The translations under genes and the position numbers were made by a program. The notes beneath the pieces were generated by a model that had not been told where the DNA came from, did not search any database, and was given only the letters and a program-made list of their open reading frames with translations. This document shows, piece by piece, positions 30,910-45,776 of a stretch of 64,000 nucleotides of DNA; position 1 is the stretch's first letter, and each line of letters opens with the position of its first letter. This stretch comes from a virus, in the IMG/VR virus record IMGVR_UViG_3300032268_000759, positions 90,841 through 154,840 of that record. One strand, written 5' to 3'.

Positions 30910-31398
30910 ATGAATAAAGATATAAAAGAAGTACTTGATTATCTAGGTTATAAAATAAATGTGGATGTTCCGGCTAAACCACCACATAGAGGTAATAATA
31001 AGTTTTATTGGTGGAGAAGATATCCAATTCATAAAGAATTACATAAATACCAACCAATTGAAGACAAATTAGCTAATGGTGATTTTAGTTATTCACCTTA
31101 TTGGACTCAAGTTCAATATGAACAATATTGGTTAGCAGAAGCCATATCTAAATCAAAATTAGAAAAGGAATGGTGTGTTGAAAAAGAAAGAGAAGTCAGA
31201 ACTATATACGCCAAACGTATAAATAAACTATCTGAAGATGCTATGAAAGATGAGTTTGAACGTTTACAATCATTTAAACTTGACTTAAAACGTCAATATG
31301 GAGGTAAACAAGATGATGTTAGTGAGTTTGTAGATAAGTTTGAAGGCAGTTTGGAAGAATGCGTTTTATTTTATAAATTATCAAAAAAGTTACAATAA
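30910..31398 (+). CDS. hypothetical protein coupled to the TGT-like gene
   Basis: A 162-residue charged protein with aromatic clusters (NNKFYWWRRYPIHKEL, YSPYWTQVQYEQYWLAEA) and a helical C-terminal half. There is no Cys pair or membrane segment. Its stop overlaps the next start (TAATG), so it is translationally coupled to the TGT-like gene and may serve the same DNA modification pathway. The family is not recognised. Confidence 0.6.
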   Translation: MNKDIKEVLDYLGYKINVDVPAKPPHRGNNKFYWWRRYPIHKELHKYQPIEDKLANGDFSYSPYWTQVQYEQYWLAEAISKSKLEKEWCVEKEREVRTIYAKRINKLSEDAMKDEFERLQSFKLDLKRQYGGKQDDVSEFVDKFEGSLEECVLFYKLSKKLQ

Positions 31399-32186
31399 TG
31401 AAAATATCACATGAAGTACCACTCTCATTACTTGAGAAAAGTTTAATGTTTAATGATTATCAGTACGTATTACCTCATTTAATAGACAAATATAATGAGT
31501 ATAAACTATTTATGTTGAGGTATAGAGCTCAAGAAAACTCATTTATAATAATGGATAATGGTCTTTTTGAGGGAGTAACTCATACAGCTGAGGATTTAGT
31601 TGAGAAAATGCATTTAGTTAAACCTGATATTTTTATAACACCTGATGATTGGAATAATTCTCATGCTACATATAAAAATGCAAAATACTGGATAAATACT
31701 CTAAAGTCACAACTACCATCAACTACAAAATTAATGGTTGTATTACAAGGTAAAACAATAGAAGAGATAACTAATTTATATAATAAATGTATTGATTTAG
31801 GTTTTAAACACTTTGCATTTAATCATTCTTCAGAAGCATACCAACGAATATTTAATCATCCTAATAAGTTAGTTAACCAAATGATGGGTAGAATTGAGGT
31901 AATAAATTCATTAAGAAGACAAGGTCATATTTTAGATAATCATTATATTCATTTACTTGGAGCATCACTACCTCAAGAGTTTATTTATTACAAAGGTATG
32001 GAATGGATTAATTCAGTTGATACTTCATCTCCAATTATAAATGGTGCTTTAAATATACCTTATGAAGAGTATGGTTTGTTAACTAAGCCAACAAATAAAA
32101 TTGAAGAGTTCTTTGAAGATAGTTTAGAAGAACAAATAGGAAATATTACATTTAATATAAATAAGTTTAAAGAATATACTTCATAG
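31398..32186 (+). CDS. tRNA-guanine transglycosylase-like protein, DpdA candidate
   Basis: A 262-residue protein with the order of TGT active-site motifs. IIMDNGLFEG (D53) matches the TGT DSGGFQ site; FITPDDW (D83/D84); MVVLQGKT (Q117-G118) matches VQGG; IHLLGAS (about 185-190) matches LMGVG; NSVDTSSP (D208) matches the nucleophile site DCVxPTR. The C-terminus lacks the Cys/His zinc site of tRNA enzymes. Phage DpdA proteins of this superfamily insert 7-deazaguanines into DNA. The neighbouring queC, queD, queE and folE support that role. The subfamily is not established. Confidence 0.65.
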   Translation: MKISHEVPLSLLEKSLMFNDYQYVLPHLIDKYNEYKLFMLRYRAQENSFIIMDNGLFEGVTHTAEDLVEKMHLVKPDIFITPDDWNNSHATYKNAKYWINTLKSQLPSTTKLMVVLQGKTIEEITNLYNKCIDLGFKHFAFNHSSEAYQRIFNHPNKLVNQMMGRIEVINSLRRQGHILDNHYIHLLGASLPQEFIYYKGMEWINSVDTSSPIINGALNIPYEEYGLLTKPTNKIEEFFEDSLEEQIGNITFNINKFKEYTS

Positions 32187-32202
32187 ATATATTAAAATAT
32201 AT

Positions 32203-32275
32203 GCTCCGTTAGTGAAGCGGTCTAACACGCTACCCTTTCACGGTAGAGGCACGGGTTCGATTCCCGTACGGAGTA
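32203..32275 (+). tRNA. tRNA-Glu (anticodon UUC)
   Basis: A complete 73-nt cloverleaf. The acceptor GCTCCGT/ACGGAGT has one G-T pair. The D-stem is GTG/CAC, the anticodon stem CTACC/GGTAG with loop CTTTCAC (anticodon TTC), and the T-arm ACGGG-TTCGATT-CCCGT. The discriminator is A and the 3' CCA is not encoded. No intron. It probably supplements the host for GAA-rich phage genes. Confidence 0.95.
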
Positions 32276-32295
32276 CAAATATTTTTAAAAATTAA

Positions 32296-32319
32296 AGCTT
32301 GGCCAACCAGGCTTTTTTT
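32296..32319 (+). terminator. intrinsic terminator after tRNA-Glu
   Basis: AGCTTGG pairs with CCAGGCT (7 bp, one G-T) around the CCAA loop, followed by six further T. It overlaps a host-type promoter. Confidence 0.8.
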
Positions 32320-32329
32320 GTTATATTAA
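32298..32329 (+). promoter_or_regulatory. host-type promoter nested with the terminator
   Basis: CTTG (32298-32301), 20 nt, TATATTAA (32322-32329), then a 19-nt leader to the ATG at 32349. The terminator hairpin forms the spacer. Confidence 0.55.
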
Positions 32330-32348
32330 TATTATAATAAAATAAGTT

Positions 32349-32567
32349 ATGACACAAACACAATACATTTCACTTTACGATTATTTAGGTAAAGCAGCTG
32401 GACCTGAATTAGGTAAACAAGTAGCAGATTATGCTAAATTAAAAAAATTTCCTGTTCAATTAAGGGAGGTTAATACAAAAACTTATAAAGGTAAAGTAAT
32501 GCTTTATACTAAAGAGTTTTTAACAGAGTTTTTTCATGCTAAAAATATTTTTACATATGCAAAATAA
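32349..32567 (+). CDS. small hypothetical protein before queC
   Basis: A 72-residue basic, helical protein (SLYDYLGKAAGPELGKQVADY). It resembles nothing certain. It overlaps the chosen queC start by 11 nt, implying coupling. A small DNA-binding or regulatory protein is possible but unsupported by a clear motif. Confidence 0.6.
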   Translation: MTQTQYISLYDYLGKAAGPELGKQVADYAKLKKFPVQLREVNTKTYKGKVMLYTKEFLTEFFHAKNIFTYAK

Positions 32568-33393
32568 AAAACATGCGGTTATAAGTTTAAGTGGAGGTAT
32601 GGATTCCTCTACTTTATTATTACATTTATTAAATGAAGGTTATGATTGTACTTGTTTAAGTTTTGATTATGGTCAAAAACATAAAGTTGAATTAGAAAGA
32701 GCAGTTGAATTAGTGAAGTACATTAATGAATATTTTGTTGTAGATGAAGAAAGTAAAACATTTGATTATCCATTTAACATTACTCATCAAATCATCAAAT
32801 TAGATGGTTTAAGTCAATTACTAAACTCATCATTAGTTGAAGGTGGACATGAAGTGCCTGAAGGTCATTATGAAAATGAAAACATGAAGGCAACTGTGGT
32901 ACCTAATAGGAATATGATATTTAGTTCAATAGTACAATCAGTAGCACTATCAATAGCTACTAAACATAATACTGAATGTGTTATTGCTTTAGGTTTACAT
33001 AGTGGTGACCATGCTGTTTATCCTGATACAACTGAACAATTTAGACAATCATGTTTAGAAACATTCAAAATAGGAAATTGGGAATCACATTTAGTAGATT
33101 ATTATGCTCCATATATGGAGACAAATAAATTTGGTATATTAGAAGATGGAGCCAAATGTTGTGAGTTCTTATGTTTAGATTTTGATGAAGTATATAAACG
33201 TACTAATACATCTTACAAACCATTTCCAAGTGGAAACAGTGATTACAAATCAGCATCATCAGTAGAACGTATTGAAGCATTTATTAAATTAGGCCGCCCA
33301 GATTCAGTTCAATATGAAGACGAATCAGGTCCTGTAAGTTGGGAAGTAGCTAAAGCACACGTAGAAACAGTTTTAAACAATCATAATAAATAA
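32557..33393 (+). CDS. queC: QueC-like 7-cyano-7-deazaguanine synthase lacking the zinc cysteines
   Basis: A 278-residue PP-loop ATPase. The ATP motif is SLSGGMDSSTLLLHLL at residues 11-26, then LSFDYGQKHKVELE, VVPNRNMIFSS and DTTEQFRQSC, all in QueC order. The reaction is conversion of 7-carboxy-7-deazaguanine to preQ0 through an amide. Canonical QueC has four zinc Cys near the C-terminus (C...C-x2-C-x2-C); here the matching stretch is TNTSYKPFPSGNSDYKSASS with Ser or other residues. ATG 32557 is chosen over an in-frame ATG at 32536 because conservation begins just after it. Confidence 0.85.
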   Translation: MQNKKHAVISLSGGMDSSTLLLHLLNEGYDCTCLSFDYGQKHKVELERAVELVKYINEYFVVDEESKTFDYPFNITHQIIKLDGLSQLLNSSLVEGGHEVPEGHYENENMKATVVPNRNMIFSSIVQSVALSIATKHNTECVIALGLHSGDHAVYPDTTEQFRQSCLETFKIGNWESHLVDYYAPYMETNKFGILEDGAKCCEFLCLDFDEVYKRTNTSYKPFPSGNSDYKSASSVERIEAFIKLGRPDSVQYEDESGPVSWEVAKAHVETVLNNHNK

Positions 33394-33394
33394 T

Positions 33395-33598
33395 ATGAAA
33401 AATCAATTAGAATTAACAAGAAGTTTTGGAGGAATAATATCAAATGATATTAAGAATTTCCAAAGTAAAGAACATATGCGTTCAGAACAAAAACATCTTA
33501 GAGCATACAAACAAGGTGTAAAATGGTTTACTAATGGAACCAAAGATGAAAAAACAAATGAAACTGTATATTTTAAAGTAGAGGAGAAGTGGAATTAA
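33395..33598 (+). CDS. small hypothetical protein between queC and thioredoxin
   Basis: A 67-residue basic protein. It opens MKNQLELTRSFGGIISNDIK and has a central KEHMRSEQKHLRAYKQGVKW segment. It is probably a helical hairpin. No family is recognised. It starts 1 nt after the queC stop and ends 1 nt before the thioredoxin, so it belongs to the que operon. Confidence 0.6.
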   Translation: MKNQLELTRSFGGIISNDIKNFQSKEHMRSEQKHLRAYKQGVKWFTNGTKDEKTNETVYFKVEEKWN

Positions 33599-33599
33599 T

Positions 33600-33848
33600 A
33601 TGAAAACATTATTTTATTTTAGTGCACCATGGTGTGTACCATGCCAATCATTAGGTCCTATTATGGATCAAGTAGCATTACGAGGTATTCCTGTAGAAAA
33701 AGTTAACATAGATTATGAAACAGATAGAACAGTAGCAGCAAATGTCACAAGTGTACCTACAGTAGTATTAGCTCAAAATGGAGTTGAAATTAAACGATTT
33801 ACAGGTGCTAAATCATTACAACAAGTATTAGACTTTTACAATAATTAA
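33600..33848 (+). CDS. thioredoxin-like protein 1
   Basis: An 82-residue minimal thioredoxin. The redox motif is WCVPC at residues 11-15 and the cis-Pro loop is VTSVPTVVL near 51-59. It would act in the cytoplasm as a reductant for ribonucleotide reductase or for que enzymes. A second small thioredoxin lies at 35376. Embedded between queC and queD in one operon. Confidence 0.85.
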   Translation: MKTLFYFSAPWCVPCQSLGPIMDQVALRGIPVEKVNIDYETDRTVAANVTSVPTVVLAQNGVEIKRFTGAKSLQQVLDFYNN

Positions 33849-33849
33849 T

Positions 33850-34311
33850 ATGAGTAAATTTCAATCAACAAAAGTATTTGATGGATACAGTTGTGTATTC
33901 CGTCAATGGAAAGCAGAAGGTACTCATTGTAGATTTCTACATGGTTATGGAGTATCATTTAGAGTATGGTTTGAAGGTGAATTAGATGAACGTAATTGGG
34001 TATGGGATTTTGGAGGCATGAAGCGTGCTAAAGGTACTATTGATGATATGAATCCTAAGCAGTGGATGGACTATATGTTTGACCATACTGTTATTATAGC
34101 AGATGATGATCCTTGTATTGGACTATTTAAGAAAATGCATGTTGAAGATCTTATACAGTTAAGAATAATACCAGCAGTAGGAGCAGAACAATTTGCAAAA
34201 TATATCTATGAAAAATTAAATGTATTTGTTCAAGAAGAAACAGATGGTAGAGTTAAAGTAGCAAGAGTAGAATTTATGGAACATAGTAAAAATACAGCTA
34301 TATATGAGTAA
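33850..34311 (+). CDS. queD: QueD-like 6-carboxytetrahydropterin synthase, HGY variant
   Basis: A 153-residue member of the QueD/PTPS fold, acting on dihydroneopterin triphosphate made by FolE. GTHCRFLHGYGVSFRVW holds the catalytic-type C27 and H31. Where classic QueD has a third zinc His (HGH) there is Y33, and the first zinc His position appears to be F17 (SCVFRQW). VWDFGGMKRAKG and FDHTVIIADDDP are further landmarks. An HGY form is known to me among bacterial QueD-like proteins, so this is a variant family, not decay. Its stop overlaps queE by 8 nt. Confidence 0.8.
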   Translation: MSKFQSTKVFDGYSCVFRQWKAEGTHCRFLHGYGVSFRVWFEGELDERNWVWDFGGMKRAKGTIDDMNPKQWMDYMFDHTVIIADDDPCIGLFKKMHVEDLIQLRIIPAVGAEQFAKYIYEKLNVFVQEETDGRVKVARVEFMEHSKNTAIYE

Positions 34312-35122
34312 AATAAGCACAGACAAGTTACTAATTAGTAGTGACTTTTATTCAGTTCAAGGAGAAGGAATTTCATCTGGTGTACCTTCATACTTCGTTC
34401 GTTTAGGTGTTTGTAATCTAACTTGTGGTATGAGTAGAAAATTCACTAACAACTTAGCTAAAGAACAAACATTACAAGATGGTGAAATATTTAAAGGTGA
34501 TTTAGAATTAGAAGGTAAAGCAACTTGGACTTGTGACTCAACATCTCAATGGTTATGGAGAGGTGAAGATAAAGATTTTCAATATCTAATTGATCAATGG
34601 AAAGAACAAGGTATCTATGAAGATATTTTAGATGGTACTATCCATATTATTTGGACTGGTGGGGAGCCTACAATTAAACAACATCAAGAAGCTATTGCTA
34701 ATTTTCATGAGTATTGGGGTGGATTTAACTCTTATGATGAAATAGAAACTAATGGGACAATAGTAATTGATAGACCATTATTTAGATTACTTGATCAAAT
34801 TAACTGTTCACCTAAATTATCTAACTCAGGTTTAGACGCTAAACAACGTATTAACCCAGATGCTATCAAACGTATAATGGAACATAAGAATTATACATTT
34901 AAGTTTGTTATATCAAATGAAGATGATGTTAGTGAAGTATTCCGTGACTTTGTAATACCATTTAATATACCACTTAAAAATGTAGTTTGTATGCCTGGTT
35001 TAGATAGTCAAACTAATTTTCATGAGCGCACTCAGTTTGTATTAGAGATGGCTAAGAAATATAAATTTAGAGGCTTAACAAGATTACATATCTCAGCTTG
35101 GGATAAAACATTAAACGTATAA
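34304..35122 (+). CDS. queE: QueE-like radical SAM enzyme with split cluster motif
   Basis: A 272-residue 7-carboxy-7-deazaguanine synthase candidate. FYSVQGEG near residue 15 and WTGGEPTIKQ near 115 are QueE landmarks. The cluster Cys are C37 and C41 in GVCNLTC, and C77 in WTCDST. The usual C-x3-C-x2-C is therefore C-x3-C-x35-C, with a 35-residue insertion before the third Cys. C-terminal segments include CSPKLSNSGLD and FKFVISNEDD. It overlaps queD by 8 nt. Function is likely unless the insertion changes specificity. Confidence 0.82.
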   Translation: MSKISTDKLLISSDFYSVQGEGISSGVPSYFVRLGVCNLTCGMSRKFTNNLAKEQTLQDGEIFKGDLELEGKATWTCDSTSQWLWRGEDKDFQYLIDQWKEQGIYEDILDGTIHIIWTGGEPTIKQHQEAIANFHEYWGGFNSYDEIETNGTIVIDRPLFRLLDQINCSPKLSNSGLDAKQRINPDAIKRIMEHKNYTFKFVISNEDDVSEVFRDFVIPFNIPLKNVVCMPGLDSQTNFHERTQFVLEMAKKYKFRGLTRLHISAWDKTLNV

Positions 35123-35125
35123 ATT

Positions 35126-35374
35126 ATGAAAACTCGTATCCATGTCAACCAACATCACATAAGATCTAATAAAACTAAAGGTACTAATCTTCCTGTTATA
35201 ACAGTTAAACAAGGTAAGAAAAATACCTATTGTAATGAGGTTGAAATATTAGGTCCAAGTAAGATAATTTATGGTGGAAATGGATGTGATGCAAAACCTC
35301 TATTAGGATGTGGAGCAAGAGTAGTAATAGAAACAGAAGCAGAAGTAATAATAAAACCTATCAATATTTATTAA
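35126..35374 (+). CDS. small hypothetical protein in the que operon
   Basis: An 82-residue beta-type protein. It has VNQHHIRSNKTKGTNLPVIT at the N-terminus and GGNGCDAKPLLGCGARVVIE near the C-terminus, with three Cys. No membrane segment. Its close packing (3 nt after queE, 1 nt before the next gene) places it in the modification operon. The family is not identified. Confidence 0.6.
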   Translation: MKTRIHVNQHHIRSNKTKGTNLPVITVKQGKKNTYCNEVEILGPSKIIYGGNGCDAKPLLGCGARVVIETEAEVIIKPINIY

Positions 35375-35375
35375 C

Positions 35376-35624
35376 ATGAAACATATATTATATTTTTACA
35401 AAAATGGTTGTGGACCATGTGATGAGATAAAATCAGTTATAGATAAATTATCTGAAACTAATAAAATAGATCGTATTAATATTAATGAGAGAGATACATT
35501 AGCTGATAAACTAAATATAATGTATACTCCAACTTTAGCAATTATTGATTCTGAAGCTAAAAGTATGGTTAAATATGAAGGTTCTAAAAAAATAAAACAG
35601 GTTATAAATGAAAATCTTATATAA
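35376..35624 (+). CDS. thioredoxin/glutaredoxin-like protein 2
   Basis: An 82-residue redox protein with motif NGCGPCDEI near residues 10-18 and a cis-Pro loop MYTPTLAII near 49-57. The CGPC active site is that of classical thioredoxins. It overlaps the HPRT start by 17 nt. Reduction of NrdA is a plausible role. Confidence 0.82.
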   Translation: MKHILYFYKNGCGPCDEIKSVIDKLSETNKIDRININERDTLADKLNIMYTPTLAIIDSEAKSMVKYEGSKKIKQVINENLI

Positions 35625-36132
35625 TAAAGAACAAATACAAACAGCTGTAAATAAAATAGCTTTAGAAATCCATAAAAGGCATTATAACGATCCAAACCCA
35701 CCAGTAATGATCTGTGTGTTAAATGGAGCATTTATGTTTTTTACAGACTTAGTTAAAGCAATAAATATTGATTGTGAAATTGATTTTATGAGAGCTAAAT
35801 CATATGATGATCAACTTCAAACTGAAGTAGTTATAACTAAAGACATTGAAACTGATATAACAGGCAGACATGTTTATCTAATAGATGATATTTTAGATTC
35901 AGGTAATACTTTAAGACATATTATAAAACATTATACTACAAATCCAAGAATATCTCCTGCTTCAATCACTCCAGTAGTGTTATTTAAAAAATGGTCAAGT
36001 GAACTTGATAATTGTTTATATGGCATAGAATTAATTAATGAATCCTGGTTATGTGGTTATGGATTAGATGGACCTAATGGTTTAATGAGAAATAGAGATC
36101 TTATATTTGGCTTTGAGCCAGAAATTGATTAA
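35608..36132 (+). CDS. hpt: hypoxanthine/guanine phosphoribosyltransferase
   Basis: A 174-residue type I phosphoribosyltransferase. The PRPP motif is HVYLIDDILDSGNTL near residue 90. The N-terminal CVLNGAFMFFTDL and DFMRAKSYDD (the HPRT flexible-loop region) and a C-terminal LINESWLCGYGLD fit HPRT. It salvages purine bases to nucleotides. Lying inside the deazaguanine cluster it may raise the GMP/GTP supply for FolE; handling of deazapurine bases is speculation. Confidence 0.88.
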   Translation: MKILYNKEQIQTAVNKIALEIHKRHYNDPNPPVMICVLNGAFMFFTDLVKAINIDCEIDFMRAKSYDDQLQTEVVITKDIETDITGRHVYLIDDILDSGNTLRHIIKHYTTNPRISPASITPVVLFKKWSSELDNCLYGIELINESWLCGYGLDGPNGLMRNRDLIFGFEPEID

Positions 36133-36137
36133 ATTAA
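36106..36137 (+). promoter_or_regulatory. host-type promoter for folE
   Basis: TTTG (36106-36109, followed by GC), 20 nt, TAAATTAA (36130-36137), then a 22-nt leader to the ATG at 36160. It lies inside the end of the HPRT gene. Confidence 0.5.
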
Positions 36138-36159
36138 TATTATAAATAAAGTTATAAAA

Positions 36160-36795
36160 ATGAAGTTATTACCAAAATCAAATGGAAACGTTCCTCGTAC
36201 GGAAGAAGAAATCGAGAATATGATTAAAGAAGCTACTGTACATTATGGTAAGTTCTTAGAAGCAGTAGGTTTTGATTATAAAGCAGATCCTCAAACTATA
36301 GATACACCTAAACGTGTTTCAAAAGCATGGTTAAAAGATTTGATTATAGGATCAGTATCAAATGAACCAAATATTACTACATTTCCTAATGAAGAAAACT
36401 ATGATGGCTTAGTGGTACAAGGTGGAATACCAGTTACATCAATGTGTGCTCATCATAATTTAGCATTTACAGGTTACGCTACAGTAGCATATCTACCTGG
36501 TGAACAAGTAGTTGGTTTAAGTAAGTTAAATCGTATTGTAGAATGGTTTTCTCGTAGACCGCAAATGCAAGAGTCATTAACACAACAAATCCATAACTAT
36601 ATAGCTGAGAAAATGGATTGTAGTTCAGTAGCAGTAAGTATAGCTTGTAAACATACATGTTGTTCACATAGAGGTATTAAACATAATTCAGTAATGACTA
36701 CTAATAAGTTTTCAGGTGCATTTATGGAAAAAGATAATTTAATCCGTGAGGAATTTTTACACGCTATTGAAAAAAATGGTACTAATCTTAAATAA
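36160..36795 (+). CDS. folE: GTP cyclohydrolase I
   Basis: A 211-residue FolE, first enzyme from GTP to 7-deazaguanines. Zinc and catalytic residues are in VTSMCAHHNLAF (Cys and His) and ACKHTCCSHRG (His and Cys), with GEQVVGLSKLNRIVEWFSRR as the family signature. The length matches bacterial FolE (about 220). With QueD, QueE and QueC in the same region, the full GTP-to-preQ0 path is present. Confidence 0.93.
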   Translation: MKLLPKSNGNVPRTEEEIENMIKEATVHYGKFLEAVGFDYKADPQTIDTPKRVSKAWLKDLIIGSVSNEPNITTFPNEENYDGLVVQGGIPVTSMCAHHNLAFTGYATVAYLPGEQVVGLSKLNRIVEWFSRRPQMQESLTQQIHNYIAEKMDCSSVAVSIACKHTCCSHRGIKHNSVMTTNKFSGAFMEKDNLIREEFLHAIEKNGTNLK

Positions 36796-36798
36796 GAT

Positions 36799-37278
36799 AT
36801 GACAGATAAATATATACCGTACATCTCAGAAGTAGAAACATTTAATGCTACTATGGGTAAACCAAATACTTATACACCTAACATCCCAGATGAAAAAGAA
36901 TGGATGTTTGTATATAACTTTATTTTAGAAGAACTTGAAGAATATAAACATGCTTGTGAAACTGGTAATATTGTTGAAGTATTAGATGCTTTATGTGATA
37001 TTACTTATGTAGCGACAGGTAATGGTGTTATGCTGCATGGTTTAAAAGATCAGTTCCAATCTGCATATGCTGAGGTACAAGCCTCAAATATGTCTAAAGC
37101 TTGTAAGACTGAAGAAGAAGCAATTGAAACTGTAAAAATAAGAAGTATAGAACAAGATACAGATTGCCATTATGAAAAAGTAGGTGACTACTGGATTGTG
37201 TATCGTACTCATGATAGAAAAGTAATGAAAAATATAAATTACTTTAGACCTGATTTAAAACAGTTTCTTAATAAATAA
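36799..37278 (+). CDS. MazG-like nucleotide pyrophosphohydrolase
   Basis: A 159-residue all-alpha NTP pyrophosphatase type. The metal-binding helix motif is FILEELEEYKHA (E-x-x-E type) followed by EVLDALCDITYVATGN, and the ASNMSKAC segment is typical of this superfamily. It would trim unwanted (d)NTPs or alarmones. It lies 3 nt after folE and closes the cluster before a strong terminator. The exact substrate is unknown. Confidence 0.8.
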   Translation: MTDKYIPYISEVETFNATMGKPNTYTPNIPDEKEWMFVYNFILEELEEYKHACETGNIVEVLDALCDITYVATGNGVMLHGLKDQFQSAYAEVQASNMSKACKTEEEAIETVKIRSIEQDTDCHYEKVGDYWIVYRTHDRKVMKNINYFRPDLKQFLNK

Positions 37279-37365: not shown

Positions 37366-40041
37366 ATGGCATTAATATTAAGACAAACTAAAGGCGCTCC
37401 ATTGACATATGGTGAATTAGATGGTAATTTAACATATCTTTCTGAATCATATGCAGGATTAAGTGGCTCTAATACATTTAATGGTAATCAAACCATAGTA
37501 GGTAATCTAAATGTATTTGGGTCAGCATCTTTTACATATGTAACATCATCTACTAATGAAATAAGTTCATCAACATTTGGTATTACTATATCAACTCCTA
37601 CAATACGTTATGGTTTATATAATGTTTATGATGTAGGTTCAACTAAAACAACAGCATCATTTGCTTGGGACTCAACTAATAGTTACTGGTTATATCAAAA
37701 AGTTACAGGTTCTGTTACTAGTAGTGCTATATTTTTAACAGGTCCTAAAGGTACAGGAGGTTTAGGAACAGAAGCAAACATTCCACAATATCGTGTCCCT
37801 ATGTCTAATGGTGATCAATCATTAGTAAATTCTAATATATTCACTAGTGGTTCTTTTAATACTATAACAGGTTCAACACTTATATATTCTTTCGCTTCTT
37901 ACTCTACCCCAACATTAGGTACAGGTTCAGGTGGTTTCTTTTTAGGTGGAGACTCAGGATTTTATGGTTTATATATGGGTGTCTCATCATCAGGAACTAC
38001 ATGGATTCAATCTAATAGAAATGATGGTTTAGGATTAGCTTATAATATAGCACTTCAACCAGTTGGAGGTAATGTAAATATAGGTAAATTTAATCCCGCC
38101 ACTACAGGTCCTAAATTAGATATATCAGGTAGTACATTATTAACAGGATCTTTAGATATATTAGGTAATACAGTTATTACAGGTTCATTAATTGTAACAG
38201 GAGGAATAACAGCTACAGCTTCATATGCTTCAAATGCTAACTCATCATCATTTGCTTTAACATCTACAAGTGCGAGTAATGCTAGAACAGCTTCATTTTA
38301 TGATGGTTCAGTTACAAGTTCATCATTTGCTTCTACAGCATCATATGTTTTAAATGCTGTTTCAAGTTCATTTGCAGCTACATCTATATCATCATCATTT
38401 GCAACAACATCATCACTTACATCACAAGCTATAAGTGCTAGTTTTGCTACAACTGCTTCATATATATTAAATGCTGTGAGTTCATCATTTGCTACAACTG
38501 CCTCATTTTTAAGACCATTAAGTCAAAGTGTAGTAAATACAGGTAGTTTAGTAACAAGAAATACAGCAACTACAACAACATTTGCCGCTATTGGTAGATC
38601 AGGTAGTTTATATATTGATTTAAGTGGTGTTGGTCTTAATTACATAGATGGAAATGCTTTATTTATAAGAAACTCAGCTGGTACAACTAATTTAGTAACA
38701 GTATCTGGTAGTAAATTTATGGTTTCAGCTCCAACAGAATTAAGTGGATCTTTATCAATGCGAAGAGCAGATGGTGATGTAGCATTATTTGTTAGTTCAT
38801 CTGTAAGTTCATCTACTAGCACATCAGTTGTAGGAACAACTGCTAGTTTTGATAGTACTATAGCCTTTACTCCAGGTGGTTCTAATACAACAACTTGGGA
38901 TACAAATTTAGATATTTATTATTCAGGTAATTCAGGTAGTGGTCATACTAATCTAAGTCCAGTATCAAGTCAAGCAGCAGATAATGTTGCATATAGTACA
39001 TTTACTATTGTTCTTAATGATGGAGCAGGTACTGGTATTTCATTAACTCCAAGTGGAAGTATACCAAGTAATAAATATACTATATGGATATATGCTTCAG
39101 GTAGTATAAATAAATGGTTTGAAAAAATAGATAATGATATAAGTATTTTAAAATCTTCAGGTTTAACTATAAACATAAATGGAGGTAATACTAATACTCA
39201 ATTAGAAAGTGATTTAATATCAACTGGTTTTGCTGAAACATCTGATCCTAATCCATATACTAATAATATAACTACTATACTTACTATATCATCATCATTT
39301 ACTTCATCATTAATGAATGTTAAAGGTGCAACTATAATAACAGGCTCATTAAATGTAAGTGGTTCAACAAGTTTTGTAGGGACTCATACTTTATCTGGTT
39401 CAAATACTATTATTGGAGATACAGTAATGAGTGGTAGTATTATAATTAGTGGATCAACTACATTTAGAAATAGTATATTTACTGTTACTGGTTCTCAGTT
39501 TTATACTGGTTCATCTGATTTTAAAGGTAGCCAAACAATAACAGGTTCATTAAGATTAACTAGTAATGGTATAGGAACAGGATTATTTATTAATGGTCAA
39601 AAACAATTTAACTATATATCTCTTTTCCATACAGCAAGTATATTACCTACACAAAATGTATCTGGTTCATTTATATATAGTTCTCAAATAACATCAAGTG
39701 GTATATCTGTTGTAAGTGGTAGTAGAATAACATTTGCTAATACAGGTACATACAATATTCAATTCTCAACTCAAATGTATACTCCTACTAATAACACTAA
39801 TGTTTATATTTGGTTTAAAAAGAATGGAACAAATATAGCGAATTCAGCTACACAAATAGATATAGGTACTTCTGATTATGGAGTAGCAGCATGGAACTTT
39901 GTAGATACATTCACCTCAGGTTCATATGCTGAAATAGTATACCAAACTGATCAAAACAATGTTCAATTTCAATATTCTGCATCCTCAGGAAACATACCTG
40001 CAATTCCTTCAATAATAGCAACAGTTACTCAAGTAGCTTAA
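37366..40041 (+). CDS. third tail-fibre-like protein with C1q-like C-terminus
   Basis: An 891-residue structural protein. The N-terminus ALILRQTKGAPLTYGELDGN is a known phage fibre start. Residues about 270-390 are Ser/Ala-rich repeats of the SSSFA(T)TASY type. The middle has GSLN and TGS repeats shared with the fibre at 440. The last 140 residues form a C1q/TNF-like head (NTGTYNIQFSTQMYTPTNN and NVYIWFKKNGTNI). It is isolated from the other tail genes, between two terminators, with a late-type promoter. A host-recognition fibre is the likely role. Confidence 0.75.
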   Translation: MALILRQTKGAPLTYGELDGNLTYLSESYAGLSGSNTFNGNQTIVGNLNVFGSASFTYVTSSTNEISSSTFGITISTPTIRYGLYNVYDVGSTKTTASFAWDSTNSYWLYQKVTGSVTSSAIFLTGPKGTGGLGTEANIPQYRVPMSNGDQSLVNSNIFTSGSFNTITGSTLIYSFASYSTPTLGTGSGGFFLGGDSGFYGLYMGVSSSGTTWIQSNRNDGLGLAYNIALQPVGGNVNIGKFNPATTGPKLDISGSTLLTGSLDILGNTVITGSLIVTGGITATASYASNANSSSFALTSTSASNARTASFYDGSVTSSSFASTASYVLNAVSSSFAATSISSSFATTSSLTSQAISASFATTASYILNAVSSSFATTASFLRPLSQSVVNTGSLVTRNTATTTTFAAIGRSGSLYIDLSGVGLNYIDGNALFIRNSAGTTNLVTVSGSKFMVSAPTELSGSLSMRRADGDVALFVSSSVSSSTSTSVVGTTASFDSTIAFTPGGSNTTTWDTNLDIYYSGNSGSGHTNLSPVSSQAADNVAYSTFTIVLNDGAGTGISLTPSGSIPSNKYTIWIYASGSINKWFEKIDNDISILKSSGLTININGGNTNTQLESDLISTGFAETSDPNPYTNNITTILTISSSFTSSLMNVKGATIITGSLNVSGSTSFVGTHTLSGSNTIIGDTVMSGSIIISGSTTFRNSIFTVTGSQFYTGSSDFKGSQTITGSLRLTSNGIGTGLFINGQKQFNYISLFHTASILPTQNVSGSFIYSSQITSSGISVVSGSRITFANTGTYNIQFSTQMYTPTNNTNVYIWFKKNGTNIANSATQIDIGTSDYGVAAWNFVDTFTSGSYAEIVYQTDQNNVQFQYSASSGNIPAIPSIIATVTQVA

Positions 40042-43840: not shown

Positions 43841-45775
<1,935 letters not shown>

Positions 45776-45776
<1 letters not shown>

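Follow-up and report, generated by a model that had tools for sequence, protein, structure and literature searches.

The last 64 kb of the 154,840-bp virus record IMGVR_UViG_3300032268_000759 from IMG/VR (64,000 nucleotides, positions 90,841 to 154,840; here called the window, whose own numbering is used below) carry an operon that very probably modifies phage DNA by means of a DpdA, a DNA-guanine transglycosylase. The operon also encodes a hypoxanthine-guanine phosphoribosyltransferase (HPRT). Here we propose that this enzyme salvages the guanine released by DpdA, a recycling role to which we give a probability of roughly 0.55. At similar odds, a guanine-salvage phosphoribosyltransferase (PRTase) would be a functional component that recurs in phage pathways of DNA base replacement, with HPRT, Gpt and Gpt-FolE fusions as alternative solutions to one need. 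This recycling link is put forward here as a hypothesis. No connection between phage DpdA and guanine salvage was found in the literature searched; the two most relevant papers lay outside that search. The original prediction for this operon had proposed a DNA modification pathway, which stands, and had missed the guanine phosphoribosyltransferase, which more likely than not belongs to the pathway.

In the proposed cycle, FolE, QueD, QueE and QueC would convert GTP to preQ0 or its amide ADG, and the CP220-type DpdA encoded at 31398 would swap guanine for the 7-deazaguanine base in phage DNA that has already been replicated. HPRT would then join the displaced guanine to phosphoribosyl pyrophosphate (PRPP) to give GMP, and kinases would return GMP to GTP, which feeds FolE again. 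What is observed are the genes, the tRNA-guanine transglycosylase (TGT) fold, the catalytic residues and the homology to CP220, together with a guanine-type PRTase that is repeatedly linked to FolE and DpdA. By arithmetic, full replacement would release 45,765 guanines per genome copy, which in a 1-fL cell with a burst of 50-100 comes to about 4-8 mM. If the proposal holds, phages that replace bases operate a purine cycle that allows heavy replacement of deoxyguanosine (dG) at little net purine cost. Such a cycle would account for the exchange of tens of thousands of guanines in each genome with neither a GTP drain nor a guanine flood, and it would assign a role to the phosphoribosyltransferase genes and Gpt-FolE fusions of phages. 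The features of the operon are as follows.

31398 to 32186, plus strand: putative CP220-type (DpdA3-like) DNA-guanine transglycosylase, 262 amino acids (phrog_19058, hhalign to CP220, AlphaFold2, Foldseek, catalytic residues)
32203 to 32276, plus strand: tRNA-Glu (TTC) inside the operon, not of the queuosine (GUN) type (ARAGORN)
32349 to 32567, plus strand: conserved protein of 72 amino acids between DpdA and QueC (homologues at the same place in dozens of related loci)
32557 to 33393, plus strand: QueC (PF06508, 124 bits; start chosen by overlap, longer open frame from 32536)
33600 to 33848, plus strand: thioredoxin-like protein (PF00085, 8.5e-14)
33850 to 34311, plus strand: QueD, 6-carboxytetrahydropterin synthase-like (PF01242 (PTPS), 1e-14; phrog_2389, 6.5e-39)
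34304 to 35122, plus strand: QueE, radical-SAM, with CX3CX35C spacing (phrog_2076, 3.2e-41)
35376 to 35624, plus strand: thioredoxin-like protein (PF00085, 2.6e-10)
35608 to 36132, plus strand: HPRT (PF00156, 1.4e-19; PDB 4qri HGXPRT, 2e-25)
36160 to 36795, plus strand: FolE, GTP cyclohydrolase I (PF01227, 1.8e-48)
36799 to 37278, plus strand: MazG-like nucleotide pyrophosphohydrolase (PF01503, 1.5e-9; phrog_671, 5.9e-28)

FolE, QueD, QueE, QueC and the TGT-like gene had been placed correctly, strand included, from the letters alone; QueC matches PF06508 at 6e-36 and the others match well beyond chance. That inventory had left out HPRT at 35608, both thioredoxins, the MazG-like gene at 36799 and tRNA-Glu at 32203.

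The 35608 product is closest to hypoxanthine-guanine(-xanthine) phosphoribosyltransferases (HGXPRT), with PDB 4qri at 2e-25 and other HGXPRT and HPRT entries weaker. It carries the PRPP motif LIDDILDSG and thus qualifies as an HPRT by sequence and motif; against TIGR01203 it scores 112 bits, under the cut-off of 150. HPRT-type genes are very rare in phage (18 of 50,697 records, several resembling host DNA). Here the gene directly precedes FolE, a position that in Flavobacterium phage immuto and others is occupied by a shorter enzyme of the Gpt, or xanthine-guanine phosphoribosyltransferase (XGPRT), type. Forty-three related loci include FolE and sufficient flanking DNA; a PRTase of one type or the other is present in 30 of them, and 29 of these genes lie within 1 kb of FolE. 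When the two types are mapped on a tree of 79 DpdA sequences, their distribution needs three changes, at least two of them forced by well-supported branches.

A search for the Gpt form through the same 50,697 phage records gave 40 records; of the 25 matches listed, 13 lie within genes that carry the annotation GTP cyclohydrolase. In the four fusions that were read, RGG, DD(I/L)IDSG-like, lysine and W-V-V-x-P-W-E motifs stand in an N-terminal domain ahead of FolE, and this domain aligns to the free Gpt family with an hhalign probability of 99. A gene annotated or placed as DpdA is found in the same operons. The fusion of Gpt to FolE, the GTP-consuming enzyme, is the strongest hint for the steps from guanine through GMP to GTP. 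The Gpt-like N-terminal domain is unannotated in the FolE of Vibrio, Sphingomonas and Pseudomonas phages (L146:4998-5900, L147:4989-5876, L148:2576-3469 and L150:5007-5930). In Brevundimonas phage MaInes a xanthine PRTase lies directly 3' of FolE.

Gpt-like genes are also present in Cellulophaga phage phiST and in Campylobacter phage CP220, where the gene at 163869 is named purine phosphoribosyltransferase in its record. PF00156 alone missed the CP220 gene, which the Gpt profile found, so absences called by Pfam alone are weak. Seven other 7-deazaguanine phages that were searched (9g, CAjan, Dp-1, nt-1, Sonali, Finch and HVTV-1) gave no PRTase. The enzyme is encoded in eight of the nine searched records of at least 150 kb with a CP220-type DpdA versus none of these seven (Fisher p 0.0014, a descriptive value for non-independent genomes and non-random sets).

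Several points weigh against the proposed scheme of modification and recycling. No PRTase is seen near FolE in 13 of the 43 loci or in the distant relatives MA9V-3 and BSP7, and in CP220 and phiST the enzyme is encoded far from FolE. The DpdA proteins that accompany Gpt-FolE fusions belong to another subfamily, and the PRTase is therefore no simple tracker of complete replacement. The enzyme activity and the base are themselves predictions from genes, and the activity of both a QueC without zinc cysteines and a QueE with altered iron-sulphur (Fe-S) spacing is assumed. Finally, the operon lies in a region of nucleotide metabolism, with ribonucleotide reductase (RNR) close by, thioredoxins and a MazG-like gene, where the PRTase could serve general purine supply. 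That the DNA is modified as proposed and the PRTase is merely one more purine-supply gene of this cluster is a possibility short of even odds, and it accommodates both the neighbouring genes and the 13 loci. It accounts less well for the tight linkage to FolE in 29 of 30 cases, for two different PRTase types at the same place and for the fusion to FolE in other DpdA phages.

The 31398 product has no Pfam or NCBIfam match above cut-off, and the PF01702 (tRNA-guanine transglycosylase) profile gave no match at E up to 10 with the whole genome searched. It matches phrog_19058 (1e-32), a family that also holds the CP220 protein YP_009169190. Identity to the Campylobacter phage proteins is 34-35% across 98% of the length, and the 31398 family aligns to the CP220 protein over 249 columns with an hhalign probability of 100. 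An AlphaFold2 model built from 48 sequences (pLDDT 95.3, pTM 0.92) confirms the TGT fold at the level of predicted structure. Foldseek against the PDB places tRNA-guanine transglycosylases at the top (E 6e-8), followed by the DNA preQ0 insertase DpdA 7ui4 (E 3.7e-7, root-mean-square deviation 4.0), and in a viral structure library the model matches phiST M4SLA5 with a template modelling (TM) score of 0.86-0.87. A TGT-like protein had been proposed beforehand and a structure-based comparison suggested, and both the fold and the 7ui4 match bear the proposal out.

The Asp, QG and nucleophile motifs that had been read from the sequence are likewise conserved: D53, D83, Q117-G118, H185-LLG and D208 show little or no variation across 11 diverse relatives and 48 closer ones. 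By motif, D53, D83, Q117-G118 and D208 are assigned to the TGT acid, base-binding and nucleophile positions. The zinc site of TGT requires three Cys and a His. Because the 31398 protein has a single cysteine such a site is impossible, as had been claimed, and the relatives have no such motif either. Full-length homology, a TGT fold with catalytic Asp and base-binding Gln, and co-encoded 7-deazaguanine genes together place the protein with the CP220-type transglycosylases, which were reportedly named DpdA3 by Cui et al. 2023.

PMC8306585, citing Crippen 2019, gives 100% of dG as replaced by dADG in CP220 and CPt10 DNA. As late as 2019, Campylobacter phages of this sort were counted among those without a DpdA (PMC6884629). 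DNA modification by a DpdA is supported, as the hypermodification reading had it, by the TGT fold, the lack of a zinc site, preQ0 genes gathered in a single operon and homology to the protein of CP220, whose DNA is reported as fully modified; the preQ0 operon is, moreover, conserved across dozens of related phage loci. DNA would thus be the substrate of the 31398 product, and replacement may possibly extend to most or all guanines. This prediction is drawn from homology and strongly supported, and it stays within a known kind of system.

It is improbable that the TGT-like protein instead modifies host or phage tRNA with 7-deazaguanine to aid translation. The nearest solved folds are tRNA-guanine transglycosylases and a tRNA gene lies within the operon, but the protein has no zinc site and no PF01702 match, QueF is missing, the operon tRNA is Glu(TTC) and not a queuosine tRNA with a GUN anticodon, and the family includes the protein of CP220, whose DNA is described as fully modified. 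Least likely of all is a route in which HPRT makes the nucleotide of the base, the nearby RNR reduces it and the polymerase incorporates it, with a secondary role for the TGT-like protein: HPRT and RNR are near neighbours, but with a DpdA present no such route is needed, the N7 that purine PRTases contact is missing from 7-deazaguanines, and Crippen 2019 reportedly saw no dADG phosphates in infections of the CP220 type.

The base predicted under DNA modification by DpdA can be narrowed from the gene content. No QueF was found in the whole 154,840-bp genome, which extends what had been noted for the operon; candidate matches were cross-matches of FolE and were rejected. The genome has no formyltransferase either, and QueC has no fused amidotransferase domain. 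These absences leave dPreQ0, at about even odds, or dADG, which is only slightly less probable; any other base is unlikely. The earlier choice of preQ0, amide or acid therefore keeps its first two members, and the acid CDG is unlikely because a QueC with ATP-pyrophosphatase motifs is present. The amide is possible as the product since CP220 is reported to make dADG.

The PP-loop ATP pyrophosphatase core of QueC is clear (PF06508, 124 bits versus a cut-off of 22), and against the equivalog TIGR00364 the score is 117.8, under the cut-off of 150.3. Its start is most likely at 32557, overlapping the stop codon of the 72-residue gene. The four zinc cysteines are retained in CP220 and, as judged by eye, in BSP7; they are replaced throughout this clade and in immuto, where the conserved motif TSYKP...SDYKSASSVER stands in their place. 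That immuto pairs this form of QueC with QueF implies that the zinc-less enzyme makes preQ0. Its use as a marker of an amide product was dropped, as CP220 has dADG with a zinc-bearing QueC and immuto has the zinc-less form with QueF. The window QueE departs from the standard CX3CX2C Fe-S motif and its known variants, with 35 residues between the second and third cysteines. The CX3CX35C spacing occurs in 36 loci (the window and 35 others), CX3CX7C in 23 and CX3CX2C in two. The zinc-less QueC and long-spacer QueE forms are offered for study.

The closest parallels share some features with the window phage and differ in others. The Campylobacter Firehammervirus phages CP220 and CPt10 share a homologous transglycosylase of 260 residues (34% identity over 98%), QueC, QueD and a purine PRTase. 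In CP220, however, the genes are scattered, QueC has its four zinc cysteines and the PRTase is Gpt-like and distant from dpdA; its base, dADG, was measured, whereas that of the window phage is predicted from genes alone. Flavobacterium phage immuto (vB_FspM_immuto) shares DpdA (35%), the order QueD-QueE-PRTase-FolE-MazG and the zinc-less QueC (56% identity). It has QueF and a formyltransferase-like gene, both missing in the window phage, and differs further in its Gpt-type PRTase and in a QueC away from the operon. Cellulophaga phage phiST shares a structurally similar transglycosylase (M4SLA5, TM 0.87), QueD-QueE-FolE-MazG and a Gpt-like PRTase, which lies about 17 kb away. No QueC is annotated in phiST, so another base is expected there.

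In DpdA phages of the Queuovirinae and similar groups (9g, CAjan, VpKK5 and MMDA13), as in the window, a DNA-guanine transglycosylase is accompanied by a preQ0 pathway. The Gpt-FolE fusion occurs in VpKK5, MMDA13 and others, and 9g and CAjan have no PRTase that was found. The VpKK5 DpdA has no profile-detectable relation to the 31398 family (hhalign probability 0.7), which is therefore a different subfamily. Bacterial DpdA (7ui4) shares the TGT fold and an aligned HLLG...S-D nucleophile region, but it is 413-436 residues long as against 262 and only 15% identical over the aligned part.

A profile scan of IMG/VR found at least 577 relatives of the 31398 protein among 600 candidate stretches. 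In the retained loci the set of DpdA, QueC, QueD, QueE, PRTase, FolE and MazG recurs, often downstream of RNR, and QueD is sometimes upstream of DpdA. A probable function is thus assigned to a transglycosylase family that is unnamed in Pfam and NCBIfam although a single collection of environmental viruses holds this many of its relatives or more.

The record bears a 123-bp direct repeat of identical bases at both ends; the genome therefore appears complete, which makes gene absences meaningful. Its G+C content is 29.6%. A Bacteroidota host is likely, given that the gene starts have no clear Shine-Dalgarno motifs and that Flavobacterium is the host of the close relative with the best annotation. 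A scan of genome contigs placed seven loci on short contigs of metagenome-assembled genomes, three of them labelled Flavobacteriales, Flavobacteriaceae or Winogradskyella; such labels are only hints at the host.

The 72-residue protein (32349-32567) has an SLYDYLGxAAG... motif and no Pfam or PHROG match; its model (pLDDT 80, pTM 0.58) has a best fold match at a non-significant E of 0.57. A protein of 162 amino acids at 30910-31398 overlaps the DpdA start codon, and about 40 related loci keep it in this upstream position. After the operon, 37366-40041 encodes a long, Ser/Thr-rich and internally repetitive protein, and a related one adjoins DpdA in several relatives (L006, L007 and L011). Further along, at 43841-45776, GroES-like and GroEL-like genes resemble those of immuto (GroEL 60% identity).

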